64,000 bases of DNA from Macrocystis pyrifera (taxonomy: Eukaryota; Sar; Phaeophyceae; Laminariales; Laminariaceae), in assembly GCA_031763025.1 (NCBI GenBank), contig JASSKH010000038.1, positions 2,645,001 through 2,709,000 on the forward strand, written 5' to 3'. Under the pieces are notes generated by a model. It had not been told where the DNA came from and made no database searches. It worked only from the letters and a program-made list of their open reading frames with translations. Every line of letters starts with the position of its first letter. Position 1 is the stretch's first letter. The translations under genes and the position numbers were made by a program. This document shows positions 1,565 through 63,408 of this stretch, piece by piece.

Positions 1565-1692
1565 ACTCTACTGTGCTCTACTGTGCTATACTGTGCTCTA
1601 CTCCACTCTAACCTGTTGTGCTCTACTGTGCTGTACTCTACGGCACTGTACTCTACTGTACCGCTTTGTACTGTACTCTACTGCTGTACTGT
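1565..1692. repeat. Degenerate 10 bp minisatellite (CTACTGTGCT)
   Basis: About a dozen imperfect units of CTACTGTGCT or CTACTGTACT in tandem. They create two spurious Tyr/Leu/Cys-rich open frames. The unit resembles the TACTG-containing words that recur across the window. Confidence 0.7.
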
Positions 1693-1849
1693 ACGAAATT
1701 CAAACCTATCCGTGCGTTGCTCTGTTGAGGGTTGTGCTTCCATCCTACCTACATACAGAGAGTATCGGTGATATCGCTTAACAGGAACAGGTGCAACCAG
1801 GGGGTTAGATTCGGCCTACTTCACAACACATAGCCAACATTCCGGGCGG

Positions 1850-2150
1850 GGTGTTGCTGAGAGCGGCTTGACGGGTCGGAATATCGGAAGGGGGGAGGGG
1901 GGGGGGTTGCCGAGTGAGACTGGGTGGGTTAGAAAAACGGAAGGGGGGGCGGGAAGGGGGTTGCCGAGACCGGGCTGGCGGGTGGGAATAGCGGAAGGGG
2001 AGTGGTGGGGAGGCAATAATAATGGAAGGCGGTTGGGGGGGGGGGGGGGTTGCTGAGAGCGACTCGATGGGTGGAATAGTGGAAGGTGGAGGGGCGGGGG
2101 ATATTGGAAGAGGCGAGGGGGGGGTAATAGTGGAAGAGAGGGCGGGGGGC
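1850..2150. repeat. G-rich minisatellite, about 60 bp units
   Basis: About five degenerate units, each reading roughly GTTGCCGAGAGCGGCTTG, then GGCGGGTGGGAATAGCGGAA, then a G run. The same array recurs at 4690-5020. The open frames here on both strands (Gly/Arg on plus, Pro/Ser on minus) are by-products of the repeat. Confidence 0.75.
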
Positions 2151-2154
2151 GGGC

Positions 2155-2800
2155 GTACTCATTTGTTGCTTGCCTTAGTCATTAGACCATTGACCACGCA
2201 TCCCTTTCGAGACGGAGCAAAGGGGGGGGGGGGGGGGGGGGGGGGGGTGTACTCATTATCGTGCATGGCCGTAGTCATATGACCATAGACCCTCGTATCC
2301 CTCCAATGCCGGGACGGAGCACGTCGGGTTTTCACCGACCAGGCAGACATTGCTTGCACCACGCGCGAAGCGCCGTGAGGTGTTGGGCGAGTCGCATGAG
2401 GGGTGAGCTGCATCCTACTACGAACCACTTTAGAGGCGAATTTTCTTGCATATGGCTGGCAGCTTCAATGAACTGATTTAATTTCTGGTGTGGCCACTTC
2501 CAGAGACAGCAATGGGTTTACTATGTAACTGCCTCGTGGGTGCCTCACCATATACACGCTACCTGGTACGTGATACGATCATCCCCCTTGTGCGGAGAGA
2601 AGGTTCTCCCCGCACAAAAATGATCTAACTTGACCGCCAGCCGCGGTAACCGCCAAAAACAAAAAAAGAAAAAGGTACCCTGGCTGTCTAGCTCACGCAG
2701 TGAGAGGCGTGTTTTGCAGCGTCGTCGCCAACCGACGCCAACCCAACCTATACATACCAGGTATACATTATAGGGGGGTGTGTGCTAATGTCAAGCTTGG
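2155..2800 (+). repeat. Dispersed repeat family A, copy 1
   Basis: A composite repeat. It has a short module containing CATTTGTTGCTTGCCTTAGT (also near 2928, with a diverged copy near 5015 and another at 59490), a run of 26 G (2222-2247), and a module containing GGCCGTAGTCATATGACCAT and GCCGGGACGGAGCACGTCGG. A tail at 2500-2750 matches 4270-4560. It is non-coding as far as can be seen. Confidence 0.7.
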
Positions 2801-2990
2801 CCGTAGTCGTATGGCCATGGACCCTCGCATCCCTACCATGCCGGGAGAGAGCACGTCGGATATTCACCGACCAGGCAGACATTGCTTGCACCAAGCGCGA
2901 AGAGAGGGGGGGGGGGAGGCGTGCTCATTTGTTGCTTGCCTTAGCCATTGCACCATTGACCACGCATACCTTTCGAGACGGAGCACCGTT
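2780..2990 (+). repeat. Family A, partial copy 2
   Basis: Carries the same GGCCGTAGTCGTATGGCCAT and CCGACCAGGCAGACATTGCT blocks as copy 1, followed by the CATTTGTTGCTTGCCTTAG module. The downstream stretch 2990-3790 is pyrimidine-rich and gives long but unremarkable plus-strand open frames; I see no domain in them. Confidence 0.65.
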
Positions 2991-3804
2991 CCTACTCCTA
3001 TTAGAAACACCTCCAAGATTTGGGCGCTCATTACGTCGTTTCCATATATTCCATAGAAACTTTGTGCAAATCTCATCTCCTTCCTGTTTCGCCGCCTGCG
3101 GCACCATCTATCTCCTATTATAGGAGCGATCGTTTTTCCTCGCTGATATCTATTGTAGTGTACCAAACTCCTCCATGTCACATTCGTCTATTTTCCTCAC
3201 CCCTTTTAACATATCCCATTCCTCCTTGCACTTTTCACATTCTCCTACTTCGTGAGTTCTACTGTGTATTGCTTTGCCACACAGGTACATCTGTGCATCT
3301 ACTTCCCTTTCCTCCCGCCTATTGGTATACCTCTTTCTTTTTTTTGGCGTGTCCAGGTCACCTACACGAAATCGCGGTTTCTGCGTTATCGCGAAATCCA
3401 TCGGGCTGTGCAAATACGTTTTCGTTCCTATTCCCTCGCTCAATACCCCGTATATCTCTTATTCAGTGTTTCTCCGATTTCATCTTGTTTCTTAGTGCTA
3501 GCATTAAATCCCTTCTTTCTATCCTTTCTTTTACTTCTTCCTTGTACCTCCCAAACTTCTCTGCGGACATCATCTCTTCTTGGTTACTCCCTATGTCCTT
3601 CCATACTTTCCCAACTACGCTATCCCACCTTATTCCAGCTCGTCCTTTTGTTACTTTATTCCATACAGCTCTATCAACTATGGCTGCCAACCTCTTTGTT
3701 ACTTACTGTTTCAACTTGCTCGTGTCTCTATTTGTGTTGAGTGGGTACATTCCAGTTCTGCTCTTAATACTGTATTTATAGTCGTACTTGAGCAGGGAGC
3801 GGGG

Positions 3805-4435
3805 GGGGGGTACTCGATATCATGCATTGCCGTAGTCATATGACCATAGACCCTCGCATGCCTACAATGCCGGGACGGAGCTCGTCGGGTCTTCACCCAC
3901 AAGGCAGACATTGCTTTTGGTGTAAACATCGTGAGGTGTTGGGCGAGTCGCATGAAGGGTGAGCTGCATCGTGCTAAAAACCACTTGTGAGGCGGACTTG
4001 CATGGCGACAACAGCTTCAATGACTCAATTTAATTTCCGGTGTGTGTTCTTCACGTTGAACCGTTCTTTCTACCCGTCGACATCCAGCACAACCAGTGTC
4101 CGTGCCGATTCTTCAATCCTATAGAGATGCAAGGTCACAAAAATTCGCCACAGAGATACTACATTGCCACGTGTGCAGTAAGCAGAGTAGACAATGCAAT
4201 GCCACCGTACTGGGTACGACAGGCACGACAGACACATTCTATGAAAGAGAGAAAACCAACGTAACAAAAAAACAGCCACTTCTAGAGACAGCAATGGGGG
4301 TCCTATGGGGCTGCCGCGTGGGTGCCTTACCATAAACACTACTGGTACGTGATACGATCATTCTCCTCGTGCGTAGTAAAGGTTCTTTACCCCGCACAAA
4401 TGATCTAACTCGATCGCCAGCTGTGACCGACCGCG

Positions 4436-4474
<39 letters not shown>

Positions 4475-4690
4475 GAAGAGAAAACAATCAAAACGGTACC
4501 TGGTTGCCTAGCTTCCGCTGTGAGTGGCATGTTTTCGGCGTCAGTGCCAACCGACGCCAACCCAAGCTAAATGGGGGGGGGGGGGGGGTGTGTACTCATT
4601 GTCATGCGTGGCCGTAGTCGTAGATGACCATAGACCCTCGCATCCCTACAAAGCCGGGACAGAGCGCGTTGGGTTTTCACCGACCAGGCA
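3805..4690 (+). repeat. Family A, copy 3, with start of copy 4
   Basis: 3808-3990 repeats 2250-2440, and 4270-4570 repeats 2500-2755, including a GCAATGGG block, a TGATACGATCAT block and a CAACCGACGCCAACCCAA block. A poly-A run of about 36 lies at 4437-4472. From about 4595 the GGCCGTAGTC module begins again. The arrangement indicates local duplication of a unit about 1.5-2 kb long. Confidence 0.65.
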
Positions 4691-5085
4691 AGGGGGGGGT
4701 TGTCAAAAGGGCGGCTTGGCGGGTTAGAACAGCGGAACATGCGGAGGAGCGGGGTGTCGCCGAGAGCGGTTCGGCGGGTGGGTATAGCGGAAGAGGGTGG
4801 GGGGGGAAGGTGTTGCCGAGAGCACTTTGGGATTTAGAAACAGTAGAAAGAGAGCGGCTTGGGGGGTGGGGATAGCGAAAGTGGCGGGGAGAGGGGGGTG
4901 TTGCCGAGAGCGACTTGTTGGTTGGGATTAGTGGAAGAGAAGGGGGAACGAGGTGTGCCCGAATGAGGCTTGACAGGTGGGAAGAGCGGGGCAGGGAGGA
5001 AGGAGTGGGGGTGCGTTCCCATTGGTTGCTTACCTTACCCTTAGTCCTTTTACCATTGACAACGCATGCATCCCTTGCGAGGGAA
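4690..5085. repeat. G-rich minisatellite, second array, plus family A module
   Basis: Units of the same type as 1850-2150 (TTGCCGAGAGCG, GGCGGGT, TAGCGGAAG), followed at about 5008-5080 by a diverged copy of the TTGCTTACCTTA / CCATTGACAACGCATGC module. Confidence 0.65.
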
Positions 5086-5159
5086 ACGGGGGGAAGAGTG
5101 TTGCCAAGAAAACATATTGTAAGCACAAACAATAAGGCACGCCTTAATGCCTTCATGCC

Positions 5160-6457
5160 CTAAGGGATGGTCCTCAGTTGGTAAGCCTACCAATAATAAT
5201 AATCAGTTAGGTTTTTAAGGCGAAAAAGTGCCATACCCTATCGTATCACGCGTCAAACAACTACTATTAATATATTATTACTATTAACACTACCCCTTAC
5301 TACTGTTGTACTTCGTATCATAGTGGTAGGCTTTGGTTTCGTTCTGAAAAGTCGGACCACGTTCTCACTAGCCACAGGTAGACCTACTGTGCTGTACCTA
5401 CGGATATAGTGCTACAGACAGATACGTCGCATCAATCTTATTGCGGCATGTTGTTGACGGATGGGTGTACTTTTCGTTTTAATCACCACACGACGTGGCA
5501 TTCACGCCGCACCTGCCCCTCCAAAGTAACAGAACAGTAAAACAGCAATAGATAAGTCAATGATGCTCCATTTCTCGCCGAATTTAGTTTGTAGTGCAGA
5601 TTTTCCCTTGCGCGTATAGACCTTAATAGGCAGGTACGTACGTAGGTGAGATGCCGCGTACCGGTTTGGTTTCTTGACAAAATAAGTATTCCCCCCCCCC
5701 CCGGTCGTGTCGGCGATGGAGAAATAATTTCTTCATGTCTTCCCTTGTCTCTGCTATTTACGCGCGCCCCCCCCCCCCCCCCCCCCCTGCCTGACTTGGA
5801 ATCCTAAGCCCTCGTTGGCTTGGCTCTTTCCCTTTTCCAGTTATGATTACGATAATTATATTTTTCCCGAATTTGATTTTGTTCGACATTCGGCAATTTG
5901 CTTCAACCTTAACAAAGACACGGGAGAACAGGAAACCCAAAATCCGCGGAGGGACGGTACGTAGCAGTAGTACGTATTGATATTTGAAAGCCTAAATTTA
6001 CAGCAAAGTAATCCCTTTCTGATATTTTTTTGCACCCGACCTCCCCCCCCCCCCCCCCGCGCGCGCTACGTCGGTCATGCATACTACGAAGGCGCGTTGT
6101 TGGCGCGCGATGGCGAGGTCCATGTCAGCTAGCCGGTCCCGGTTGGCGCTTTGATTTTACGCCAATGTTGTGGGAGGCGTTTAGTGTACCTGGTATGTAC
6201 TATGCCTACTTTTTGCTTGTGTTGCATACGATGTTTCACAACTTTGCCTCTCGTGGTCTTGATTTTCTGTGCCTTGATCACTGCCATGATCATCATGTTT
6301 ACCTTATTACCTTATTGCCGCTCGCGCTGCGCGTTGAAGGAAATGCTTGTATACAATCAGAGAGAGGATGCCCTGTGGACGGCATGATAATATTTTTAGT
6401 GTATGCGCAGCGCATGGTATGTACGGGGGTGGTTGCTGTTTGCAGTTGAGGTGTCGG
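5160..6457. other. No gene seen; homopolymer-rich spacer
   Basis: Contains C runs at about 5691-5702, 5768-5787 and 6043-6058. None of the open frames shows a recognisable domain or splice-phase continuity. Confidence 0.4.
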
Positions 6458-6682
6458 TGTGTTGGGCTAGCTACTGGTAGAAGGTTAACCGAGCGCCTAC
6501 CCAAACTAAGCATACTCTTGATAGGAGTGCCCTTCCCAGAAATTGGAATCGCGTGTTGTGGTAACACGTCGGCCCATATATATCCGGTTCGTTCCAGGGG
6601 GGGAAGACAGTTATAACTTCTAAAGCTTAGTTCAGGTATAGGCGATAGGTTAAACCTTTACCAGTAGCCCAACAGACTAATA
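6458..6682. mobile_element. Short TIR element (about 225 bp)
   Basis: The left end, GTTGGGCTAGCTACTGGTAG followed by AAGGTTAACCGAGCGCCTAC, is mirrored at the right end as an inverted imperfect copy (CTTTACCAGTAGCCCAAC on the plus strand). The internal sequence also resembles 120-200 in part. No transposase is present, so this is a non-autonomous element or MITE. Confidence 0.5.
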
Positions 6683-6719
6683 CTTTATCATTTATCTACG
6701 CGTCCTTTTGTGCGGAGAC

Positions 6720-6800
6720 GCCCCCCCCTCCGTCCCGGCTTTGTAGGGATATTTATGCGAGAGTCTATGGTCATGCGACCACGGCCATGCTTGTATGACT
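6720..6800 (-). repeat. Family A fragment, inverted
   Basis: The plus strand reads CGTCCCGGCTTTGTAGGGAT and then CATGCGACCACGGCCATGC. This is the reverse complement of the family A module at 2265-2325. Confidence 0.6.
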
Positions 6801-6979
6801 TGATGACTGCCCCCGCCTTCCTTTCTTCTACAGCGGCACTTGCAACAATAAATACTGTAGGTTTATAGTTTACTGGGTTGTGATACTTTTGTGTGATCTA
6901 CAGCATCTCATCTACTACTGCTGGTATGTCCATAAGTTATCCCATTTGTGTTGTAGTATCCTCTATCTACAAGGTATGA

Positions 6980-7066
6980 TATACCACTCTATCCCATAAT
7001 ATAAGAACTTTTTGTACACTAATTGTTAAACCAAACGGTGGTTATATTTCGGAACAGAGTGGTATA
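6980..7066. mobile_element. MITE, TATACCACTC family
   Basis: 87 bp with perfect outer inverted ends TATACCACTCT / AGAGTGGTATA and partial complementarity further in (CATAATATAAG against GGTTATATTTC). The terminal TA could be the target duplication, as in Tc1/mariner-type MITEs. Related copies lie at 23600, 36085 and 63607. Confidence 0.65.
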
Positions 7067-8100
7067 ACATACACAAGTCGATGTTCATATGTTTCCCGAG
7101 CAGTTATTTATACGAGTACGTGGTATTATGCTCTATTAATAGTATCTGTTTTGTAGATTATACGTAGTATACCAGACATACACATAGAGTAAGTCGATAT
7201 GTTTTCCCACTTCTTTTTTTGGGTTATGTTGCATTCATGATAGCTTTCCGTGCAGCAGCACGCAACACTGCTGCTGTAGTTCCGAGTTGTTAATAGATGT
7301 GATACTTCGTACCCGGTATTGCGCTACATCACTCACTGATCATGAACACAGTTGGTTTTTCTTGGTCTAATATGGGCGCGACTCTGTCTGGTATTAGTAG
7401 TACGAGAGGGAACCCATCTTACTTAGAAAAATAACATGTGCCAAATGTATGATTTAGTTGTAATCTGGAATAATAGGTCTTCAGTCTCTATTCGGTCGAT
7501 ATTACATGTAACAGCAATAGTAGTAGGTTCCCCTTTCCTGTTTCTGATGGAATCTCGAGTTGGACCGCACGTGGGCGGCATATACCTGGAGGAGGGGGGC
7601 CGTCGATAGAAGGCAGGCATAATAATAATAATAATAATATTAGATCCATACCAGTACACAACACCATCCAGTACACAACACCATCATCCAAGAACAAAGC
7701 TTAAACTTGTTTTGGTGCATCATTTTTCCTTTCCTCGTATGCGGGTGAGCTCTACCATGCTGGAAGATCCCTGCAGTAATTCTATAATACTACAGACTAC
7801 TCGTACTTGTGTATATATGATACCAGGTACGGCAGCGTCTGCTCAATGTATGCACTGCTTTGGTGATATTGTTGTTAATATATCAATGGTTCGTGTGGTA
7901 TTGTACGTATGTATGAATATATCACAGAGAAGACCGTGCGTGATATTGGCAGCAACTTCGTGCGTTTCTGCTAGAAAATGTTCCCGTCTCTGTTACAGTA
8001 CGCATATAAACAACAAGTATACTGCACTCGTAGTAACGCCCCACTTCACCATATACAGCTACTCTCTGTTTACTGCATACTGCGTGCTGCATAGCAATAT

Positions 8101-8552
<452 letters not shown>

Positions 8553-50438: not shown

Positions 50439-50534
50439 ATGTTGCTGTGTCGCAGTGAGCTCTCCGCGTCAGACGAGGATAGTACCTGGATTTCGTGGTT
50501 TGTCTCGCTTAGAGGCAACGAGTTCTTCTGCGAG
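50439..50534 (+). CDS. CSNK2B: CK2 beta exon 1 (N-terminal)
   Basis: Reads [19 protein letters not shown], then [13 protein letters not shown], and ends at a GTGCGA donor. The conserved WISWF...LRGNEFFCE core fixes the frame. The frame is also open upstream to an ATG at 50361, and an intron acceptor within the first codons is possible. Confidence 0.85.
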
Positions 50535-53500
50535 GTGCGAGCGTGTACGGTTGTTGTGGTGGTGTTCATACACCGTCTCATTTTGTTGCTTCTCGTTGTT
50601 TCGTCGGCCCACTAAAATTGCCTGTCCGCAACAGCTTTTGCTGTGATCTGTGGGATCGATGTTGAAACGATCTCCAGTCAATAAACAGGGGCAGGTATGA
50701 TTGGAGGTCAGAGCACCTTTTTTTCAGGGCTTTTCGCGGGTCAGGTCAAATCTCACGGGTCGGGTCGGGTCGGGTCGGGTCGGGTGGGATCGGGTCAGCT
50801 GACCCGACCCGACCTGCGAGATTTTGAAAGCCTCTTGACCCGACCCGACCCGACCCGCGAGATTTAAAAAGTTGTTGACCCGACCCGACCCGACCCGTGA
50901 GATTTGAAAATATCCAGACCCGACCTGACCCGACCCGACCCGACCCGCCCCCTTCGGATTGACCCGTGAGACACGGGTTTCGTGCGGATCGGGTCACCTT
51001 GACCCGTGAGACTATTTATCTTGACCGGCAGGTCCGATCTGCGGATCCGGCCCGTGGGTCGACACTTCAAAAACAATTTTATATCCATTTTTGTGTCCAC
51101 AAGCGATATGTGGCCTGGCTGCAGTGGGAATAGATGGATGCGGGCATGCGTATATTGATTTGGCAGTGTTTTAATGTTTGAATAAGATACCAAAGGAGTA
51201 TTATTAAGTATTTGTACGAGAAAAGCCTTGGAGTAAGAAAGCGGGAAGTGTTTTGAGTGTCGGATCCGCGGGCCGGATGCGCGGGTCCGACCCGCGGGTC
51301 AGCAGGAAAGGACTCGCGGGTGATGCTGGCCCGACCCGCGAGTGATCCGTTTCTCGCGGATCATGACCTGACTCGACCCGTGAGCTTTTCATCACCTCTG
51401 GACCCGACCCGACCCGACCCGACCCGTGAGATTTTGAACACTTCCTGACCCGACCCGACCCGACCCGTGACATTTTTAACACTTCGTGACCCGACCCGCG
51501 GGTCGGGTCATGACCCGCGAAAAGCCCTGCTTTTTTTAATGAATAGGGCCACTAATCGAACCAGTGGCACTGCCGATATCTCCTCGCATTTTATTCGGAT
51601 TGACGCCTGTTCTCCGGAGTTCCGGGCCGATGTTGGTGCTATGGCTGATTTGCTCTGCATGAATGGAACGGTTGTTGGACCTCGTTACAGGTGGACGAGG
51701 ATTACATCCAGGACGACTTCAACTTGACAGGACTGTCGACGATGGTGCCATATTATGAGTACGCCCTCGATATGATTCTCGATGTCGAGATGCCTGTGGG
51801 CCAAACGCTGACGGAAGAGCAACAGGTAAGGAAACCACTACAGTAGACGTCATGGCCGTATGACACGACTGGATTTTGTCTGCTAGTAATAGAACTGTTC
51901 TGTTCACATACCAGCGCACGCAATATTTAAACGGGTGATAGGGGTGAACGCTCGTGATGTTGCGCACGCACATGCAAGAGTTCTACAGGTTCCCGCGCGT
52001 ACCCCTGGTTCGCTTTGGTGTGCAGTCATTTTTCCTCACGGCAAGAAATTAATGTCCAGGAAGATGCAGTAGACATTTTACACTTGAAGGTTTTTAACGC
52101 ATTGAGCTTTCAACTCGCAGTTATCTCGCATTTCACCCAATGCATTGTGTCCGTCGCTTGACCCACCGCTACCTTGCCGTGCTCTTACGTTGGTATGTTC
52201 GCTGTCGTGCTTTATTGTTTTCGTTTTGCAGGAGGTGGTAGAAAGCGCCGCAGAGATCCTGTATGGCCTCATCCACGCGCGTTATATCCTCACTAACCGA
52301 GGGATGCAGGGGATGGTGAGCGCAGCGGGTGATGGACGATGGGGCCATATTACCGGTGTCGGCCTGCTTGTGCATGTAAAAATGTTGGAAAGTCTCAAAA
52401 AAGTGTTGGCGTGTCTTGTATCCAGATGATTTTCATGTGATGGTCTATTCAAGCCGCGCTGTAGGCCTCCCGATGACTCATGCTGCCGGTACCTGCCTGT
52501 CTGTACTGTCATGTATAGATTTTTCAGTAGTGTTTGGCCACTCTGCCGGTATCTGGCTGCCTGTGCGCATGTGCGTGTGCGTGTGCGTGTGTGTCAAGTG
52601 TGAATAAATCAGCGTCGTTGGCGTGCTTGACCAGATGAAACCTCCGCCGTGCAGTCGATGTTTCTACGCACCGTGGTGCCAGGCTTAATCAATTGCATTA
52701 CTTGTTTCGCCGTTGTATGTGCCGTGCCCCTTTCGAATAAACCGCGCTGACTGACTCCTTCCTTCCTTCCTGTCACCCATCCTCACCGACCCTCCCCTCC
52801 CGCCAGTTGGAAAAATTTCAAGTCGGCGCTTTCGGCCGGTGCCCGCGAGTGTACTGTCAAGGCCAGAACGTCCTTCCTGCGGGACTGTCGGACGTCCCAC
52901 GCAACTGCACTGTGGCAGTGTATTGCCCGAAGTGCCAGGTGGGGAAGGCATGTCCAGTAGCTATTTACTTTTGAAATTCTTCAGTATCGAATTAATGAGT
53001 TGTGGGCTCCAGAGCCAGATTGGGTTACTAAAAATGGAATTTTACGCGAAAATAGTCGAAAAGCGGAGAATTTTGGGAGAGTCTGGAACTATTCGACAGG
53101 ACCCAGTAGCCACCCTCACTGCATCTGGCACCGCCTATTCGTGACTTTTGGTTCGCCTAAATTGAGTTGTTTTTACCCGTACAGTAGTGATGACATATCG
53201 TACGTGGCTTGAACGTAAGATGCCCAGAAGATGCATTTTGCTAGTCTCCGCCATGTAATGTTCGTGATGTCGATTGACTAAACGTGCGAAACATCAAGCC
53301 CGTTCGCACCTCCCGTGCACAATTAGAGCTTTTGATTAGGTGGGGCCGTCCTTTCGCTCACATGGGGTTACATGGAAGGTATTCTCTGAAATGCTGCCCT
53401 TTGTGTTGTTTTTTCTTTGCAGGACATTTTCACACCCCAAGAGTACCCGACAGGCCAACATCGATGGCGCGTACTTTGGGACAACTTTCTCGCACCTTTT

Positions 53501-53543
53501 CCTCCTCGCGCATCCGGAGCTCATCCCATCTAGACCGAATCAG
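50439..53543 (+). CDS. CSNK2B: Casein kinase 2 regulatory (beta) subunit, 5 exons seen
   Basis: The regulatory subunit of the CK2 tetramer: it dimerises through a zinc ribbon and docks the catalytic alpha subunits in nucleus and cytoplasm. Exons: 50439-50534, 51691-51825, 52232-52315, 52807-52938, 53423-53543, all phase 0 except the last. Landmarks: [79 protein letters not shown]. The four zinc cysteines have the family spacing (5, 23 and 3 residues; C117, C122, C145, C148 if the ATG at 50439 is used). The last exon is 121 nt where 120 keeps frame, with an extra C in the run 53435-53438. The final exon (FVPRxYGF type) was not found downstream. The start is uncertain: GTCGCAG just before the TGAGCTC at 50456 could be an acceptor. 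Confidence 0.92.
50725..51529 (+). mobile_element. Non-autonomous hAT-like element, copy 1 (805 bp)
   Basis: Inverted ends CAGGGCTTTTCGCGGGTCA and TGACCCGCGAAAAGCCCTG. It is flanked by an 8 bp direct duplication CTTTTTTT (50717-50724 and 51530-51537), the hAT signature. The subterminal parts are arrays of GGGTCGGGTC / GACCCGACCC separated by TCTCACGG and TTTTGAAA-type spacers, in both orientations. The core at about 51060-51250 is AT-rich. It sits in intron 1 of CK2 beta and encodes no transposase. Confidence 0.85.
51691..51825 (+). CDS. CSNK2B: CK2 beta exon 2 (acidic loop region)
   Basis: 45 codons from acceptor GTTACAG to donor GTAAGG, reading [35 protein letters not shown] and [10 protein letters not shown]. 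The stretch [15 protein letters not shown] is shorter and less acidic than the animal protein's DLEPDEELED loop. Confidence 0.95.
52232..52315 (+). CDS. CSNK2B: CK2 beta exon 3
   Basis: 28 codons from acceptor TTTTGCAG to donor GTGAGC, reading [20 protein letters not shown] and TNRGMQGM. This is the most conserved helix of the family. Confidence 0.96.
52807..52938 (+). CDS. CSNK2B: CK2 beta exon 4 (zinc ribbon)
   Basis: 44 codons from acceptor CGCCAG to donor GTGGGG, reading [35 protein letters not shown] and VAVYCPKCQ. All four zinc-binding Cys are present. [11 protein letters not shown] replaces the usual MVKLYCPKC. Confidence 0.96.
53423..53543 (+). CDS. CSNK2B: CK2 beta exon 5, with 1-base insertion in a C run
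   Basis: Begins DIFTP (family DVYTP), then loses frame at CCCC (53435-53438). In the next frame it continues [20 protein letters not shown] and [15 protein letters not shown] to a GTGAGG donor. With three C the exon would be 120 nt and in frame. The donor context ACCGAATCAGGTG is duplicated 55 bp downstream (53589). Confidence 0.85.
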
Positions 53544-53691
53544 GTGAGGAGTTCTTTCCGGTCGGGGACTTAGAAGGAGTCAATTTACACCGAATCAGGT
53601 GGGGAGTTGGCTTCGATCGGACTCTCAAGAAGTGCTTTAAGTTGTAAGTGTACCATGCTTTTCGACACTGTTGCATGCTTGGTGGGCAGTA

Positions 53692-53801
53692 CTATTACGG
53701 GGGACCATAGTCAACAAGACTTATGGTTTACATAAAAACCTATATATTTACCTATTTTTACTATCAATATTTGGTCCTATTAACTATGGCCTCCCGTAAT
53801 A
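53692..53801. mobile_element. MITE, GGGGGACCATAG family, copy 4
   Basis: CTATTACGGGGGACCATAG at the left and CTATGGCCTCCCGTAATA at the right. Orientation of the interior matches the 13654 copy and is opposite to the 22417 and 25927 copies. It lies downstream of CK2 beta exon 5. Confidence 0.8.
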
Positions 53802-53809
53802 ATATGTCA

Positions 53810-55200
53810 GCCAATGTTTGCGGTCGCGACAATTTCATCTTCACAAGCAGTACATACTCGCATACTTACATTACAGTACGGACACAACATGCAGTACTAT
53901 TAATAGTGGCGTCGCCCGAGTGTGGTCGATTGACGTTGTCGTGCTAGTGTTTTGTAGTTCTTGTGTTATTCGAGTTATATGCACCTGCTCCTCTCGGGGG
54001 TCAGGTCGGGTCAACGTGCCCAAACTCCAGGGGTAACAACAGCCTGTTCTGATGTTACAACGGGAGCTATGGGCTGAATTTACACACGACACGAAATTGA
54101 AACGTGGAAGTGTGGTGAGCTCAAGCTTTATTTTACCAATCCGCCGGAGGATAAAAAAAAAAGAAAATGAGTTATACGTGGTGATGTCGGATACGTTCCC
54201 TATCCAACGCAAACCATCCGAGCAGCGCCCAGCAGTCTTTCCTCCCAACGACTCGCGACTGACTGACTGTAGGACTGTAGGAACTGTGCATGTTCTTCAT
54301 TCATACTTGATGTCTAGCGAAAGGTGTCTTGAGCCCAGCTCTTGCTGTTGGATGACCCCATGACCCCACCCCGCCTTCTTTACTCTGTATCTCTGCGCCT
54401 CTGAAACTTGAAACCGCACAAAAATCGTCCCTCAGGCGTACGTATCGAGGATATACGGGTTTAAGATCCACCAGACGAGTGCGTACCACCGCAACAATAA
54501 AGAGGCGGGAGCAAACGGGGAAGCGGGAAGCGCACGAGCTTCGCGAAGGAAAAACAGCAAAAAGGATAAAGCACGCCACACCGCGCGTTAGGGTGCGTTG
54601 GCCTTCCAACTCTCGTTGCGTATGACGGCGAATACTCGGCTTCCTTTGACATGTTGTAGATTTCGTTGTTGTATTGCCGTTGGACCAGGATCTTCGGTTC
54701 ACAACTCAATCGGGGTTTGGGGGCGAGTCGATGTTTTTGAGCTCGTCGAATTCTGGATGTTTCCTCGTTTGTAACGTACACTAGCACTAGATGTGCCGCG
54801 CCAGATGCTTGAGTCAGCGCTTCACGCCGTGTTGGTGCGATTGCTCTCAACAGTGAAGTGTACCGGGTATCATACATCTCAGCCTATAGATCGCTTGTTG
54901 AACGACCTTCGCAGCACACACAGGATGGGAAGTAGTACCGTATGATACAAAGTTCGTTGATGGGCACGTTGCGAAAGCACTGCGAAATGACGAAACAATC
55001 CTATAGGCGTAACACATTCGCCAGCAACCCACCGCATGCGCGATGTGCAGTGCATGTGTGCATGTGCCCGCCACGGACGCACGGACGCACGTACTGTACG
55101 CCTCTTGCCTCTTGCCATGCTACAGTAAGCAATTACCGAGTAAAATGTTGTACGATTAAACTCAATAGGGGATACCGCTGTCGGCTCATTCAGGAGCAGT
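53810..55200. other. Convergent intergenic or 3' region, CK2 beta / EF-hand
   Basis: The CK2 beta terminal exon and both 3' UTRs should lie here. I scanned the plus strand for an acceptor followed by the F[VT]P[KR]xYGF motif and found none. Open frames present have no recognisable content. Confidence 0.4.
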
Positions 55201-55205
55201 GCGCT

Positions 55206-55327
55206 TCATTTGGGAGTTGGTGTTGTTGCTGTCGCTGATGCTGGCGCCACAGGCACGCTTTTTGTGAGCGCTTCCACATACACTTGTCGCTTTTTAGGGT
55301 TCAGGAAGTATTCCTTTAGCCCCATCA
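55206..55327 (-). CDS. EF-hand protein exon 8 and stop
   Basis: Acceptor CTTTCAG. Two bases (TG) complete the codon begun by exon 7 (GTG, Val), then MGLKEYFLNPKKRQVYVEAL, TKSVPVAPASATATTPTPK and TGA. The phase fit supports the linkage. Confidence 0.82.
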
Positions 55328-58300
55328 CTGAAAGCAGACGAGAGCAAGCAGGGTCCATCGGCATGAGGGGGTGAGGCGAGGGGTTGCGCTGTGTAAGGGT
55401 TGTGTTGGCGTTGTGTTGGCTTGGTTCCACTGGGGGAAGCTACAGAGTGAGTGCTGCTCAAGTAAATTTATGTTTTACATGCTTGCTTTACTCCCTGTTT
55501 CTGTTTCTACAGTACTTGAGTTTCTTTTTAAGCTTGTTGGCTCCGAACAATGAGATGCGAGGCGCGCGTTGGTTTAGGCGGAAACGGAGAGTGTGCACCT
55601 TTTCGAATCTGGGCATCTCGTTGTCTCTTCCGGTTCTTGGCTTCTTTCAACTTCTCCATCTGCTCCACGTGCTGCCTGTTCACTCGCCAGTAATCCAGCT
55701 CGTTGATCTGGATGTTGCGTTTTCATTTTTGCGGTGACCCACGCAGCCGGAAAAAAACAAGCACGGGTGAAGGCAAACTCGTGAGCAATGTTCCATGCGA
55801 GTGATCGGGTAGGCCAGGACTTTTGACTTTGATCTCCTTATCTTCCTGTGGGTGTAAGAAGTGGTGCTGGTATTTATAGTGTCCACTACACTCTCCGGCG
55901 CAAATTGCCAGCGCATGCCATGCGACTACTGACTCTGGCGGTCCTGGTGGGCGCTGCTGATGCCGAGTGCACCCTCTGTGGCTCTGTCGTGGCAGCATAG
56001 GCTTATCCTAACGAAGCTGTGAATCAGTAGTTGCATCGACACAGAAATGCTGGCTGCATTCTGACTCTACCGGCGGGGCTTACGGTGCGCGATTCCCATA
56101 CTCCACCTCGCCCAGAACACGGTTGGTTGGTGATTTTTGCCTAGGTCTTTTCAGTTTATTGGAAAGTCGAATATAGATTCATATTATATTTAGCTTCGTA
56201 CCAGGTACGTGTTACTGTACTGCGTTTTGCCACCTTTTGTTTCCACCACTTGGTGCCGAGTATGCTTCGTTGCGTCGATTGCTGGAGTCGAAAGACAGGA
56301 TAAAGCACTTGAGGAAAGTCTTTGTTCATGATCTGCGGGACAAGGTACACGATCGAGCAGTAGCAGCAGTCGGGCCGGGCGGGGCACCGGGGTCAACATT
56401 TATTAATAGTGCAAAGTAACATTCCAGTGAAGCATCGATCGGCGTGACGGTAATCAATATTTGTACTCGTGTAATCTATTCATGTCCATCAAGTTGGCCT
56501 GATGTTGCTCTCTCACATCACAAGGTATAATCTGGCTTTGCCGCATCATTGGGCTGCGCTGTCGATATCGTACTCTAAACCAAGGCCGATAGTACTGATA
56601 GCTGATATCGCGTTCATATCGAGGCGGCTAATGCTGTCACGCTCATTCAAAGGGTAGGATCGCTTGCATCACAGCAGTGCATACCTCGTGGCAGAATTTT
56701 AATTAGGCGGCCGGGGCGTGGTGCGGACCCCCGCCAGGGCCCAACGGAAAACAAACGCCGGAGGCAAAACATTGGACATAAAAGGCGTACCTATACACAA
56801 AAGTGCGTGTTACCCACTCCTTGTACTGCACCGTCTCGTAGTAACAGTAGGCGGCCGTCAGGCTCGTGCTTGGTGCAAAGAAGCACAAAGTTAAGATAAA
56901 CCGTATCTGGTAAGCATATCGACTATAGTAGTAAGCATGTGTAACGTCTTCGGTCGATGAAGAAACGTTTTTTTTTTGCCTTCGGCGAAAAGGTCCCCAA
57001 AAATTGTTTTTCGCCTGCGGCAAAAAGTGAGGAACAATATTTTTATTTCGAATATATACCGGTATTATTCGAAAAAGGGTGCGGCCCTTGAAATTACCAA
57101 TGCCGCAAGCCGCACATTGCCTCCAGGGCGTGGTGCGCTAAGCGAAATCTGACGAAAAAAAGTGCATCGCCACACCCCCTATTGTTGACCCTGCCTGGTG
57201 GAAGATTCCAAGGCTTTTCACGGGTCATGACCCGACCCGCGGGTCGGGCCATAGGGTGTTCAAAATGTCATGGGTCGGGTCGGGTCAGGAATTGTTCAAA
57301 ATCTCACGGGTCGGGTCGGGTCGGATCAAGACGTTTTCAATCTCGCGGGTCGGGTCAGGTCGGATCAAGAGTTTTTCAAACCTCGCGAATCGGGTCAGGT
57401 CGGCTCAAGAATTTTTCAACTCTCACGGGTCGGGTCAGGTTGGATCAAGAGGTGACGAAAAGCTCACGGGTCGGGTCAGGTCATGACCCGCGAGAAACGG
57501 ATCACACGCGGGTCGGACCAGCATGAACTGCGAGTTGTTTTTGGCTGACCCGCGGGTTGGACCCGCGCATCTGGCTCGCGGACCCGACGCTTCAAACACT
57601 TCCCGCTCTTACCCAAAGGCTTCTCTGGTACTAATACTCAATATGACTTCTTTGGCATAATAATGTTCAAACATTAAAACATCGCCAAATCCATATACGC
57701 ATGTCCGCATCCATCAATACCCACTACAGCGAGGCCACATAACATATTTATAGCTACGGGGCACAAAATGAGTACTGTACCAGGTATATAATAGTTTTTG
57801 AAGCGTCGACCCACGGGCTGGATCCACGGGTCGAACCCGCGGGTCAAGATAGATGGTCTCGCGGGTCAAGGTGACCCGACCCGCATGAAACCCGTCTCGC
57901 GGGTCAATCGAAAGGTGGCGGGTCGGGTCGGGTCGGGTCAGGAGGTTTTCAAATCTCACGGGTCGGGTCGGATCGGGCCAGCAGTTTTTGAAGTCTCGCG
58001 GGTCGAGTCGGGTCGGGTCAAGAGGCTTTCAAAATCTCGCGGGTCGGGTCGGGTCAAAAATCAACACACCTCAAATTTTTCGCGGGTGGGGTCGGGTCAG
58101 CTGACCCGACCCGACCCGACCCGTGAGGTTTGACCTGACACGCGAAAAGCCCTGGCAGTTCCTATGGTATGTATTCACCCCTCTCCTGTCTACACACACG
58201 CTCCATCGCTTAATCCGTGATATCGTAACACTGACACAACGATGCGCTGTAGTTTTTTTTATGTTAATAGTATACCTGTTGTATAGGCAGATTACCAGAG

Positions 58301-59442
58301 AACGAAGGGGGCGATATGGGGCAGGCCCGACTACTGTAATGTAGGTCGAGCTAGACGCGTGCAGTTACTCACAGAGAGTGATGTCTTATCTTGATGTCCC
58401 ACTTTCCTCGCTCTCAGAGGGTTCTGAAACAGGGGGGTTTTACATGTATTATTTGTTTGGCGCGTTTCATCAGAAACGCGCCTCTTCGACAATGGAGAGG
58501 GAAGGGGGTCATGAATACCATGACACAAGCCCACCTTTATGGCTCGTATGTGCAGATGCATAAAAATCAGGAGGGTACAAAATCCATCCAGAAAATTCTG
58601 AGAAATGGATCGAAGATACGACGCTTCACAACTCACTCTCACACCTCTATAATTTGCAAGGTGAAAGCCGGTTGAACCAACAAAAATCTGCATCCTAGGG
58701 CAGGAAGCAGGTTTGTCCCGAAAGAGACGGGGGGAATCGAAAGATGCGCGGCATGCAACGTGGCAAGAAAAGGGTCGCGAAGAACAGAAACAATGAAAAC
58801 AGAACGGCTCGAATTCGAGAGACGTAATATGTGCTAGCACGTACGTATGGACTCCGACCTACCATAGGGGGGAGACCGAGAAAAAAATAGAAAAACAAAA
58901 CCGATGTACGCAGGTCAAGTGCCAAAAGGGGAACGGAGGCAAAACACTAGAAGGGGCACGGTAGTCCAGACCCAAGGATGATACGCAACGGGTGATCCCA
59001 AAATCGGTGGTCTGGTGGAACGGTGCAAAGCGGTAGAGAACGATGCACATGGGCGACGAGAACACACGGCCCAAGTGGGAAAGAGAAGGGCGCTCGATAG
59101 TCGAGAGGTAGCCAAACAGTTTCGGGAACGACTTGCAGCACACCCAACCGAGGGTGGCGCGGAGGAACCCAAAACTCAAGTCCGAAAAAAAAATCAGAAG
59201 AAGGGGGGGTTCGTTCCGAGGCAGAGAGGACGAAGAAGACACACCCAATACGTACGTGAAGATCAACCTTATGGCCCTACATCAGAGGGGAAGCCGGGGG
59301 CGTGGAATGCCACATATCATGCTGAAATGAGAACGAATACGAAGCGGAAAAAAAAAAAAAAATAATAAAGAGGACGAGAAGACGGTGCTCCCAAAACGGG
59401 GATATAGGGCACGCTTTGCCTGCTACTCCTTAGCGATAAAGG

Positions 59443-59482
<40 letters not shown>

Positions 59483-62400
59483 CGTACTCATTTGTTGCTT
59501 GCCTTAGTCATTTGACCATTAGCCACGCATCCCTTTCGAGATGGAGCACATGGGGGGGGGGGGGGGGGGCAGGGGGGTAGAAAAGCCGAAAAACAAAATT
59601 CCCGGAAAAAAAAAAAACGTCGGCCAGCAGGAATATCAAAATTCGCAACGTTGTGACTAGTCCAAAATGGCTCAAAGCAGAGTGCAAACTAAGCCGAGAG
59701 AAAAACATTGGCCCGAACAAAAGTCGTCACAGAGGTGACGCGTAGCATGCTGAAACAAAAATGAGAACACAGGCGGGCAACCGAGGAGAAGAACGCGGTA
59801 GCCGAAGAAAAAAAACGGGAGGAAGCGTTCGCGGGGGTGCATAGTCCCACAACTGCAACGCTCCAAGTGTCGGCAGACAGCCGGTCATACGCTGAAATAA
59901 ATCACCAATACGAGTACGGGGGCGTCGAGTATCACGAGGTAAAAAACGCGATACGCAGCGCAAGAAAAAAAAAAAAAAAAAAAGGGAAAGAAAGAAAGAA
60001 AGAGGTCAGTGGTGAGCTGCCCGGCGGATTCGACGCTTGACGGTCGCCCTCTGACCGCCAAGCTCCTTTACCTCGACCTTCCCAACGACATGCCGGGCGC
60101 GGACGCGCCCTGCTTAGTGTCGGTGGTTTGCTGCAAGCCTTGCGCAAACCCCCACGACAGCTCCGACCTTCCGTGGTTTCTCCCCGCGGGACTAACACCG
60201 TATGTCCTCAACAACTGCACCTCAAAATCCCCTCCTTACCACGCCACCGAGGACGACAATACCGGGTCCATCGACCGCCTAAAAGTCGAGAAAATCACTA
60301 GCCACCGGTCGGTACGTGGGGGCATGGACGGCAGGGTGGATGACGGGCTCCTCCGGCGTGTCGTCGCCGGACCCTTCGAAGTCGACCACGGCGTCCATGG
60401 GGTGGGGAAGAATCGTAGACATCTTGGAAGAGGAGACGATGTCTGAAGGGTCGAAGAGCGGAAGGGGAAAGCGACTGGACGTAGCGGCAAAATAGGTTTC
60501 TCGGGAAGCTTCCTCTTCCAGGCGTTGTCGGTGTAGGCGCGCCTCCTCGTCCAGGGTATGCACTTTTTTTTACGGTCAGGGGGGCCTTCATGGCTATATC
60601 CCCGCGGAGCGCCGCAGTTAACGCCGCCCATCGGGCGCGTGTGATGGCGGCCAAGTAGACGGCAGGGACAGAGCCGGCAAGCGTCGCGGCCGGATCATCT
60701 GGTTCTGCTGGAAAGAGGGTACTGGCCGCGATGGTAGTGGTGCTGGCGGTACGACACCTGCAGCAGTTTGCCTGTCTGCATTTGGATCAAATTTGTGGCA
60801 CGTGTCGAAATTCCCACCGGTACACCACCGCTTGTTTGCCCCCCCCCTCGGCCCCTGACTCGTTCGACCTCACCTTGACCCCTCCCTCGAGCGCTCACGC
60901 TGCTGCTGACGCGTTTCACCCCAGCCTGATCTCTTCCCCAGCCCCGAGTGCTGCTGTAGCTTCCCCAGCCCCGTGTGTTGCTGTAGCTTCCTCAGCCCCG
61001 TGTGCTGACATAGCTCCAGGCCTGTATGCTGGTTGTGGTCCAAGGAAAACTGCTGCAGGCGTCATACCGCCAGCATCGCTACCATCGCGGCCAGTGCCCT
61101 CTGGGGCTGGGACCTCGACCATGTCTACAAGACTCGTGGGTGAGTGGGAAGGTCCCCGCACGGGCTGTTGGCAGAGCCGGTGAAGAACTCTCTGAAAGAC
61201 TTATGCAAACAGAGTGCAATAAAAATCAGGGAAAAAGGAAAGAGAAAAGGAAAACGAGAAAGCAACCAACAACACTCGCCGAAGCTATCGTAGCCTTGGC
61301 TCGTGAAAGAGAGCGGGTACACGCGATCTAGGTCTACGTGTCCTGCCGACGACGCCATGTTTGATAGTATACCTGCTGTATAGGCAGATTACTGGATAAC
61401 AAACGGAGCAGTATGGGGCAGGCCCGACTGCTGTGATACAGATCGAGCTAGACGCGTGCAGTTACTCACAGAAATTGATGTCTTATCTTGATGATTCCCA
61501 CTTTCCTGGCTCTCAGAGAGTTCTGATAGTAGGGGGGGGTTATATATACTATTTGTTTGGCGCATTTAATCAGAAACATGCCTCCTTGACAATAGAGGGG
61601 GAACGGGGGCATGAATACCATGACATTTTCCGCACACCCGATGACACTCATGGGTCAAGACTGTGACTAGGCTCAACTTTCAGACGCTCTACCGTGCGCA
61701 TAGTATCATACCTCAAAACTGGCGAATGGAAGCCTGCCATGGTCGTCCAGGTGCAACTGATTTAAGGCGCTCTGTACGTTATTCGAGACGTTTGAGATGT
61801 GGAGGACCTGCTCAAGACGTGATACGTTCGGTAAAATCACAAGAGAGTGTTAATGTCCCCTGCCGAGAGATTGACCGATATCTTCGTTTCACGGTGCGCG
61901 TGAAGCGATGTTCCCTGATGAAACATTGACATGTGTTCGCTTCACGGTGCCCGTCAAACCTGAGTTCACCACTCAACACGTTAGCAACTTGACGCGAGAC
62001 AACGAAAGAGGAATAAATAACCCAAACCGACGCTTGTCGTCGTGCAGTGCATGCTATGCGCTCTTGACTGCGAAACCTGACACGAAGGAGCTTGTAAGGT
62101 ACCCGTTCCCCTACCGAGGGGCACTTAGCACTTGCCTTGATGAAGTGGTGAAGTTCTTCCATTTCCATCAGCCCAGAACGGTCTTTATCGTAAACCATGA
62201 AGCAAAACTTGAGCATATCCGTAACGCAAAGGCAGCAGAATGTGCACACAGCCTGGACGAATTCGCTGAGCGGTGCCGATCATGAGAGATAGCACAAGCG
62301 AGCAAGATGATCGGTCGTGAAAGTCAATATCAGCACTTGTGTACGAATTATACTAATATATACCTGGTAGAGGCTAAAACGGAATGATGTGCGTAGTTGT

Positions 62401-63408
62401 CGTCGTTGTCGTTGTCGTTGTCAGAAGTGGTGTGGTTTCATTTTCATTTTTATTTTTAGTAGCACAATAGAACGATGGCCCGCCTGGATTCTATAGATAA
62501 TTTGCGATATATATATTGGACTACAGCAGTATCGTTTCCTTCATCGGGGCCAGGAATCCGGCAAGGCAAACACTGCCCCTCCTTCTCCCAGTCAGCGCCA
62601 ACGTGCCAACTCACCCAAATTCAAGGGTCTCTTCGTCCTCAGGATCCACGAGCGAAAATATGGCGTTCCCGAACTCATTCCGTTCTTCCCGAATGATGCA
62701 TTCAAAAAACGCCTGTCTGCTGATTAGCCCTTCGCGCCTGAAACACTCAATGGAATAAAAAGTTCACGATCTGGCCTGTAAATGAATCGCTGCATACACT
62801 TCAGAAATAGGCCAGGTACCCTGGTATATTTTATCGGCTTGATTTTAACTGAGTCAAACAGCGGCAGGCGCGGCTTAATCCGCGTGGTGACATCTGTTGG
62901 AGGTTTGGGGTTCTACATTAGACAAGCGCTAGCTTGCGAGTGGTCGCGTATTGTTCTGCAGTTCGTAAACCTGCCACTCGGCGAGAGCGTTGGATAATTC
63001 ACTAACTGTACGAGTATGTGCTGTGTAGAATGCGCCTGCGTACTCCATGTACGCTGTGAAGATTCAAGGCAAGTGGAGCGACATTCGAGGTGGCGATCAA
63101 CACTCACTTGAGGTCAAACTGCTTGAAGATCTCCCAAAACACTTCAATGTCCTCCTTCTTGACTGTACACGCAAAATGCGGTCAACGAGGGCAACGCGGT
63201 TAGCCTCGTATGCGTGTTTAATTGCTCATGAAACTCATATATCGATCATACAAGCTAAACTGCAGCAATGCTGTAAAAAAACTCGCGTTTATTTGCATGT
63301 GTAAAATGTGTGTTTTGCAGAAAATCTCGGCTCACGCATAAAAAGCTCCTTGCACCGAACAATTCTGCCCCCTGAAGGAGGTGGAGGGCCAGTGGGGGCA
63401 TTACCCAT
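55206..63408 (-). CDS. EF-hand protein with MGN start, 8 exons, 256 residues
   Basis: A probable calcium-responsive membrane-associated protein. Exons (minus order): 63336-63408, 63108-63162, 62615-62737, 62136-62265, 61712-61771, 56234-56332, 55599-55707, 55206-55327; 771 nt with all phases agreeing and a TGA at 55206-55208. MGNAPT fits an N-myristoylation site (Gly2, Thr6). EF-hand regions: about 41-53 degenerate; 74-85 acidic (DPEDEETLEFGE, no Gly6); 110-121 canonical (DKDRSGLMEMEE); about 134-146 degenerate (LDDHGRLPFASF). The C-terminal third has FPQVLYPVFRLQQ, a Lys/Arg-rich helix (EKLKEAKNRKRQRDAQIRK) and NPKKRQVYVEAL. The order resembles four-EF-hand proteins of calcineurin-B or CBL type with an extended tail. 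A small exon may be missing between 61771 and 62136. Intron 4 has a GC donor (AAG|GCAAGT). The 5.4 kb intron 5 holds an hAT-like element and other insertions. Confidence 0.85.
55599..55707 (-). CDS. EF-hand protein exon 7 (basic helix)
   Basis: 36 codons plus one base, from acceptor ATCCAG to donor GTGCAC, reading INELDYWRVNRQHVEQMEKL and KEAKNRKRQRDAQIRK. A strongly charged, probably helical segment. Confidence 0.8.
56234..56332 (-). CDS. EF-hand protein exon 6
   Basis: 33 codons in phase 0, from acceptor CCCGCAG to donor GTGGCA, reading IMNKDFPQVLYPVFRLQQST and QRSILGTKWWKQK. FE-IMNKDFPQVLYPVFRLQ is the stretch after the last EF-hand in related proteins (FPALLFPAFRLQ type), which ties this exon to exons 1-5 despite the long intron. 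Confidence 0.82.
57209..58154 (-). mobile_element. Non-autonomous hAT-like element, copy 2 (946 bp)
   Basis: Ends CAAGGCTTTTCACGGGTCAT and CGCGAAAAGCCCTG, with arrays of GGGTCGGGTC separated by TTTTCAAA/TCTCACGG spacers. The core at about 57600-57790 matches 51060-51250 in reverse complement (ATATACGCATGTCCGCATCC against GGATGCGGGCATGCGTATAT). The flanks GAAGATTC and GCAGTTCC match at 5 of 8 bases, so the duplication, if any, is decayed. Confidence 0.78.
58262..58530 (+). repeat. Direct repeat, left copy (pairs with 61363-61630)
   Basis: Shares TAGTATACCTG, GGCAGATTA, GGGGCAGGCCCGACT, GTCGAGCTAGACGCGTGCAG (ATCGAGCTAGACGCGTGCAG in the other copy), TTACTCACAGA, GATGTCTTATCTTGATG, TATTTGTTTGGCGC and CATGAATACCATGACA with the right copy. 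The two copies are 3.1 kb apart and about 80 percent alike by eye. Confidence 0.75.
59444..59555 (+). repeat. 39-G run and family A module
   Basis: A pure G run (59444-59482) is followed by GCGTACTCATTTGTTGCTTG, CCTTAGTCATTTGACCATTA and CACGCATCCCTTTCGAGATG, the same module that follows G runs at 2150-2215 and 2920-2980. A second G run of about 18 lies near 59551-59568. Confidence 0.8.
60279..60900 (-). pseudogene. Degenerate open frame, function unknown
   Basis: Minus-strand frame from about 60654 (MAAITRARWAALTAALRGDI, AMKAPLTVKK) appears to continue after an A8 run (60564-60571) in another frame as HTLDEEARLHRQRLEEEASR, ETYFAATSSRFPLPLFDPSD, and on to SDFLDF then stop at 60279. This pattern suggests a decayed gene, perhaps the gag-like part of a retroelement between the direct repeats at 58.3 and 61.4 kb. 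I recognise no domain. Plus-strand frames at 60009-60446 and 60731-61183 overlap it. Confidence 0.3.
60713..61101. repeat. 57 bp inverted repeat and 30 bp tandem repeat
   Basis: 60713-60769 and 61045-61101 are inverted copies (plus strand at the right: CTGCTGCAGGCGTCATACCG, then ATCGCGGCCAGTGCCCTCT). Between them, 60935-61010 has about three 30 bp units containing CCCCGTGTGCTG and GCTGTAGCTTCC. Confidence 0.65.
61363..61630 (+). repeat. Direct repeat, right copy
   Basis: See the left copy at 58262-58530. It lies just downstream (on plus) of the degenerate frames and 80 bp from EF-hand exon 5. Confidence 0.75.
61712..61771 (-). CDS. EF-hand protein exon 5 (degenerate EF-hand 4)
   Basis: 20 codons in phase 0, from acceptor GTACAG to donor GTATGAT, reading SALNQLHLDDHGRLPFASFE. 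It lines up with LDADGDGELDMEEF-type loops but has lost the residues at positions 1, 9 and 12. Confidence 0.75.
62136..62265 (-). CDS. EF-hand protein exon 4 (canonical EF-hand 3)
   Basis: From acceptor GCTCAG, reading EFVQAVCTFCCLCVTDML, KFCFMVYDKDRSGLMEMEEL and HHFIK, ending at a GC donor AAG|GCAAGT. The loop has D1, D3, S5, G6, E9 and E12, so it should bind calcium. It is followed by an unusual Cys-rich helix composition. Confidence 0.93.
62399..62423. repeat. (GTCGTT)n microsatellite
   Basis: Four GTCGTT/GTCGTC units in intron 3 of the EF-hand gene. Confidence 0.7.
62615..62737 (-). CDS. EF-hand protein exon 3
   Basis: From acceptor TTTCAG to donor GTGAGTTGG, reading REGLISRQAFFECIIREERN, EFGNAIFSLVDPEDE and ETLEF. 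It completes the degenerate EF-hand 1 and opens EF-hand 2. Confidence 0.9.
63108..63162 (-). CDS. EF-hand protein exon 2
   Basis: From acceptor GTACAG to donor GTGAGTG, reading (L)KKEDIEVFWEIFKQFDL. This is the first EF-hand entering helix (family type: EVLRFWEVFKKFD). Confidence 0.88.
63336..63408 (-). CDS. EF-hand protein exon 1 (myristoylation-type start)
   Basis: MGNAPTGPPPPSGGRIVRCK then ELFM plus one base, with donor GTGAGC. This start was chosen because MGN plus Thr6 fits the family and the donor gives the phase that exon 2 needs. Confidence 0.75.

Follow-up and report, generated by a model that had tools for sequence, protein, structure and literature searches.

The giant kelp Macrocystis pyrifera carries an abundant family of short, non-autonomous mobile elements, which duplicate 8 base pairs (bp) of target DNA and are, as we consider likely, hAT-type DNA transposons mobilised in trans by a hAT transposase of the kelp. 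Two copies lie within a 64,000-nucleotide stretch of contig JASSKH010000038.1 (assembly GCA_031763025.1, positions 2,645,001 to 2,709,000), hereafter the window, and both contain arrays of the pentamer GGGTC, from which we name the GGGTC family. An initial annotation of the window had proposed a hAT-like origin; to this we add the family size, an AT-rich target preference, and an array period of about 41 bp recurring across unrelated motifs.

Precise ends, 8-bp duplications and empty sites

The two window copies (copies 1 and 2, Table 1) are homologous and lie in opposite orientation, as initially annotated, with 78.4% identity over 818 alignment columns. Their shared 16-bp ends were likewise recovered, with two mismatches in one end of copy 2 and one in the other. 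A scan of the window for the 16-mer at up to three mismatches returned five matches compared with 0.49 expected, the fifth being a stray at position 32404 with three mismatches. The perfect duplication annotated at copy 1 was confirmed as CTTTTTTT on both sides; the flanks of copy 2 agree in five of the eight bases, leaving this copy without an intact duplication. Neither of the two open frames crossing copy 1 matched a Pfam family, and among five open frames across both copies none scored above the cut-off, the one weak match staying under it with an E-value (E) of 0.04.

The genome that we searched comprises 537,376,219 bases in 223 contigs, published as a 537-megabase assembly of 223 contigs with an N50 of 13,669,674 (PMC10498591). 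The exact 16-mer occurs at 1278 places (643 + 635) and nowhere in the control. Because all but 30 of these ends are followed by a T, the first GGGTC most likely belongs to the end. Searching with the core yielded 1495 first-look candidates; the 40 that were scored all matched.

Our sample of core-bearing stretches numbered 41. Besides copies 1 and 2, it comprised 19 stretches in which both ends are exact and 20 selected for the best match to the core. One stretch, L098, lacks its left end, resulting in 40 copies with both ends; locus L050, described below, was kept out of these counts. Exact 8-bp duplications flank 24 of the 40 copies, while nine match at seven of eight positions, three at six, and four at fewer, so that at least seven positions match in 33. 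When the right flanks were permuted 1000 times, the means were 0.8 for exact and 1.8 for at least seven matches, with maxima of 5 and 8, and picking the ends blind to the flanks left 24 and 33 unchanged. All 24 exact duplications are distinct in sequence and exactly 8 bp long; none of the 40 copies shows an exact 9-bp duplication, and in one copy the match is exact over 7 bp instead of 8. The 24 targets follow roughly the pattern RWAATTWY; all but two of the bases at positions 2–7 are A or T. The flanks of L032–L034 are shared, as if these three copies derived from a single insertion, and L031, judged by its left flank, looks nested inside another copy.

At L050, the element interrupts one unit of a local repeat, and paralogous empty sites were found at 4108 and 7085, where two other repeat units of the same locus read GTTCGAAAATATAA with a single GAAAATAT. 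Taken together, the precise ends, duplications, and empty sites require a transposase-like insertion, and there is good support for a non-autonomous cut-and-paste element that duplicates 8 bp. The refutation test named in the initial annotation, an absence of further copies with 8-bp duplications, was thus not borne out. The same three features speak strongly against a satellite-like or G-quadruplex-forming repeat spread via recombination, which we regard as extremely improbable, even though the copies average 4.8 G-quadruplex-type motifs each, counted on a single strand, compared with 12 in 50.7 kilobases (kb) of the window when both strands are counted, and other tandem arrays occur in the window as well.

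The family also has relatives. A related end pattern occurs at 950 places (474 + 476; control 1 + 0), and among the places listed it mostly reads CAGGGCTGTTC or CAGGGCTCTTC followed by RCGGGTC. Within the first 100 places, facing pairs include at least four at 148–224 bp, at least one at 952 bp, and at least one at 62 bp. Exact matches in six viral contigs (16-mer) and 16 GTDB contigs (19-base pattern) were taken as chance, since none of these loci carries more than one GGGTCGGGTC or any unit.

Polar subterminal arrays around an AT-rich core

The array unit consists of a conserved pentamer block and then a variable spacer, as seen from 329 units anchored on CCCGYGAGATTT in the 40 copies. Among 289 anchor-to-anchor distances, 89 measure 40 bp and 79 measure 41 bp, together 168. 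The arrays had been described as running in both orientations, and 66 opposite units do exist, but the layout is mainly polar, with the 329 units in core orientation. GGGTC runs close to the very ends are flipped, as is the outermost run of the left array of copy 1 relative to the rest. Left arms contain three to five units in 34 of the 40 copies, and right arms four to five in 31. Exact GGGTCGGGTC occurs 43 times in the window, all inside copies 1 and 2, compared with 0.09 expected. The statement that arrays make up most of the element proved too strong, as exact pentamers cover 28% of copy 1 and 25% of copy 2, and the delimited tandem arrays 40% and 37%. The AT-rich core was described correctly (G+C 0.39 in copy 1 and 0.44 in copy 2, compared with 0.59–0.64 in the arms), and the other 39 cores are 82–96% identical to that of copy 1.

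Subterminal tandem repeats and many non-autonomous derivatives are also reported for Muta1-type Mutator-like elements (MULEs) of Aedes aegypti, where ten of the 12 Muta families with long terminal inverted repeats bear subterminal tandem repeats of 9–15 bp, lying within those repeats, and all 14 families make duplications of 8 or 9 bp (PMC5225508). A non-autonomous MULE is nevertheless improbable for the GGGTC family, whose arms are largely direct repeats of one another and not long inverted repeats, whose 24 exact duplications lack the mixture of 8 and 9 bp, and whose target is strongly AT-biased, whereas Muta1 is reported to have little or no preference (PMC5225508).

hAT elements of giant kelp with similar arrays

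Terminal inverted repeats of hAT elements are short and of the YARNG type, and their target duplications are 8 bp; the GGGTC family agrees in both traits, with CAGGG ends and 24 exact duplications among 40 copies. The kelp genome is rich in the hAT dimerisation domain PF05699 (150 matches in 150 scored, of 317 candidates). In the text of the giant kelp genome paper, neither "hAT" nor "transposon" occurs, and transposable elements were annotated with RepeatModeler (PMC10498591).

The closest parallel is L174, an element of 1512 bp with inverted ends CAAGGTTGTGTTCGGTAAGGTAC of the CAAGG type, a PF05699 match inside (E 3.4e-5, over the cut-off), and an exact 8-bp duplication, the AT-rich GAAAATAT that also occurs at L050. 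Both of its arms carry 41-bp arrays (7.3 and 4.4 copies), with nine units one way and none the other. L174 and L173 form one family, family A, which has CA...TG inverted ends like the GGGTC family. It differs in containing at least part of a hAT transposase gene, in having a unit built on CGGTAC, and in the number of its exact end places, which is eight.

At two further hAT loci, L160 and L165 (PF05699 E 7.3e-12 and 6.1e-11), the 3' side of the gene bears 42-bp arrays whose sequence is unrelated, and the two transposases are homologous (29% identity, E 1e-34). A regularity of about 41 bp thus appears in four families (GGGTC, A, and those of L160 and L165), of which both arms were read in GGGTC and A only, and the array motifs are GGGTC, CGGTAC, TAGCTCA, and CAACTAG. 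Arrays with a period of 28–75 bp were found in nine of 50 hAT 3' flanks and two of 50 control stretches, and arrays of at least four copies in five and none, respectively. Other flanks have periods away from 41 bp: 30 and 43 in L057 (AT-rich), 33 in L060, 29 in L062, 35 in L167, and 47 in L170.

Automatic detection yielded clear ends for one of 30 loci (L078), one of 14 extended loci (L054), and one of four (L174); it returned no ends for L160 and L165 and did not find the far end of L173. L078 is a 1487-bp hAT element with ends TAGGGATGTAC and duplication GCAGCAGG, and L054 (5404 bp) contains a PF05699 match, ends TAGAGGTCGGTATCA, duplication ATCTCAGC, and arrays of the pentamers GATAT/ATATC at both ends.

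A family A-like hAT transposase, about 79–84% identical, recurs on contigs C3, C61, C76, C182, C138, C200, and C223. On three of these contigs (C3, C61, and C76) it stands some 44–48 kb from a GGGTC-family end, an arrangement that is perhaps a large duplicated segment.

Search for an autonomous partner

The hAT loci were read at 1.5 kb on each side for 30 (with 2.5 kb more upstream for 14) and at 1.2 kb downstream only for 20. An end search of this kind can work, as four of the eight exact places of the 26-base family A end have a PF05699 match no more than about 1 kb away. For the GGGTC family, we inspected the 50 hAT loci and 42 lone-end places among the 1278 exact ends, and none of them revealed a hAT transposase with the same ends. 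Several of the lone-end places appear to be copies of each other.

Two of the 42 lack the ordinary core. L140 (C131:1071193-1072403) is a deletion copy of 277 bp whose far end has one mismatch and whose duplication is 8/8, a still shorter form of the element. L135 (C128:3453634-3454844) is a disrupted end, and the 1.2 kb read there contains other sequence. At about 740–960 of this locus, repeated GGCCGGGCC-type stretches with CGCGAGATTCC were seen by eye; their layout resembles the GGGTC unit with another motif, and they may belong to a diverged sister family.

We also considered L050 (C128:603003-611262), an element of 7060 bp with an 8/8 duplication, as an autonomous candidate and rejected it, because the flanking repeat, in two tandem copies, breaks up its core. 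Five of its ten open reading frames (ORFs) of at least 100 amino acids were scanned and matched no Pfam family. The arrangement lies at about 990–7310 of the locus: the copies that break up the core belong to the repeat that hosts the element and include the empty site, and they may be filler that gap repair took from nearby sequence. Variant ends, 30 without the following T and 77 with a non-G after CAGGGCTTTTCGC, were tried as a mark of the partner and dropped; among the places listed, none was seen near a PF05699 match when compared by eye.

Weighing the hAT assignment

As no transposase gene with GGGTC-family ends was found, the hAT origin rests on analogy, and it is our best reading: the abundance of PF05699 and the layout and AT-rich 8-bp duplication of L174 support the origin first proposed, whereas the missing transposase and an unclear target motif do not.

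Several observations weigh against it. In the stretches examined, no transposase gene carries GGGTC-family ends; none of the 50 hAT-coding loci (of 317 candidates) has a GGGTC array as its own flank, the array upstream of the hAT locus L059 belonging to a separate, closed 193-bp relative, and the ordinary core is present in 40 of the 42 lone-end places. The target motif classically associated with hAT elements, nTnnnnAn, is not clearly seen in the 24 exact duplications, of which 16 have T at position 2 and 11 have A at position 7. The hAT analogy leans mainly on the single element L174, and a 498-amino-acid stretch of the gene of its family (P0001, from L175) matched no Pfam family. Furthermore, the duplications of L078 and L054 (GCAGCAGG and ATCTCAGC) are not AT-only.

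Sola-1 elements make 8-bp duplications. In the Kyakuja-Dileera-Zisupton (KDZ) group, Zisupton and the Dileera element Zisupton-1_PGr do so as well (PMC12730594). Giant KDZ and Sola-1 elements are reported from Ectocarpus, another brown alga (PMC12477816), which also counts against a hAT origin. We nonetheless consider a non-autonomous KDZ or Sola-1 element unlikely, because the hAT-domain element L174 has the same layout and AT-rich duplication, and the KDZ profile PF18758 had no match in the genome, with a silent control; no search was made for Sola-1. The P-type profile PF21787 also had no match, again with a silent control, so that both zero counts came without a positive control signal, a further point on the opposing side. 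The Merlin profile PF12762 (IS1595-type DDE) had no match in a six-frame search, which does not handle introns and whose control was positive in one of 14 genomes.

Genomic context of the window copies

Both copies had been placed in introns. For copy 1 this holds: in a gene for the casein kinase II regulatory subunit (CK2-beta), successive exons were read by eye as ending at 50534 and starting at 51691, and PF01214 is matched on both sides. Five open stretches match this profile in order (positions 1–19, 16–63, 60–98, 89–132, and 131–172), those flanking the intron being 1–19 (E 0.03, under the curated cut-off) and 16–63 (E 5.8e-10). The intronic position of copy 2 is unconfirmed; this copy lies between the last CK2-beta stretch (ORF 53340–53570, plus strand) and an EF-hand-like exon at 61815–62279 on the minus strand (PF13405 E 2.3e-4, under the cut-off). 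A frame at 62614–62763 shows a weak likeness to PF08414 (E 0.014, under the cut-off). Adjoining copy 2, a repeat at 58264–58525 recurs at 61361–61625, 3.1 kb apart, in two pieces 87% and 84% alike. Elsewhere in the window, a (TAC)n microsatellite occupies 8102–8551 (450 bp, 150 copies, 96% matches).

Table 1. Features of the two GGGTC-family copies in the window (window coordinates).
Feature	Position	Strand	Remarks
Copy 1, complete non-autonomous element, 805 bp	50725..51529	+	one of 40 copies with both ends
Copy 1, left target-site duplication CTTTTTTT	50717..50724	.	perfect 8 bp
Copy 1, left terminal inverted repeat, 16 bp, CAGGGCTTTTCGCGGG	50725..50740	+	0 mismatches
Copy 1, left subterminal array	50748..50951	-	40–41-bp units: GACCC pentamers, CGYGAGATTT, variable spacer
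AT-rich core common to the GGGTC family	51062..51262	+	G+C 0.39
Copy 1, right subterminal array	51365..51498	-	unit and orientation as in left array
Copy 1, right terminal inverted repeat, 16 bp	51514..51529	-	0 mismatches
Copy 1, right target-site duplication CTTTTTTT	51530..51537	.	perfect 8 bp
Intron of the CK2-beta gene holding copy 1	50535..51690	+	donor GTGCGA, acceptor TTACAG, by eye
Copy 2, decayed, 946 bp, opposite orientation	57209..58154	-	flanks GAAGATTC / GCAGTTCC
Copy 2, subterminal array, right arm in core orientation	57272..57482	+	period 40
Copy 2, subterminal array, left arm in core orientation	57918..58055	+	period 40

Possible mechanism and implications

Short subterminal repeats close to inverted ends are also known from Hermes and Ac/Ds, which make 8-bp duplications and whose copies are mobilised in trans. 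Plant hAT miniature inverted-repeat transposable elements have similar, CGGGTCGGGT-like subterminal pentamer arrays near CAGGG or TAGGG ends. For Hermes, the structure accounts for the hAT use of multimers and long ends: multimerisation of the transposase brings together BED domains, which recognise short repeats in the subterminal part of the left end (PMC10368747). Its AAGT-type sites are interspersed in the ends, unlike the tandem units of about 40 bp in the GGGTC family (PMC10368747).

By analogy, the arrays of the GGGTC family are putative transposase binding sites. A hAT transposase, probably a multimer with N-terminal BED fingers, would be drawn to the ends by the arrays of short sites, cleave at the CAGGG ends, and insert the element at an AT-rich 8-bp target, roughly RWAATTWY, which would thereby be duplicated. 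A unit of 40–41 bp corresponds to about four helical turns, so that successive sites would lie on the same side of the DNA and might be offered in phase to the multimer on one face. Many such sites may let non-autonomous copies win the shared enzyme.

More tentatively, and with less confidence than for the hAT origin itself, the four families could represent a kelp hAT lineage in which the transposases recognise arrays in helical phase. The period of 40–42 bp would have been kept while the motif, acting as lock and key, turned over fully between families, the units being mostly in one orientation in the two families where both arms were read, and non-autonomous copies would have spread with the arrays of their partner. 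In the open-licence literature, we found no description of this element or of an array period shared among hAT elements. The GGGTC family adds to giant kelp an abundant mobile family, one copy of which is intronic, and kelp families that keep a spacing of about 41 bp and change the motif may allow binding geometry and binding specificity to be separated by comparison.

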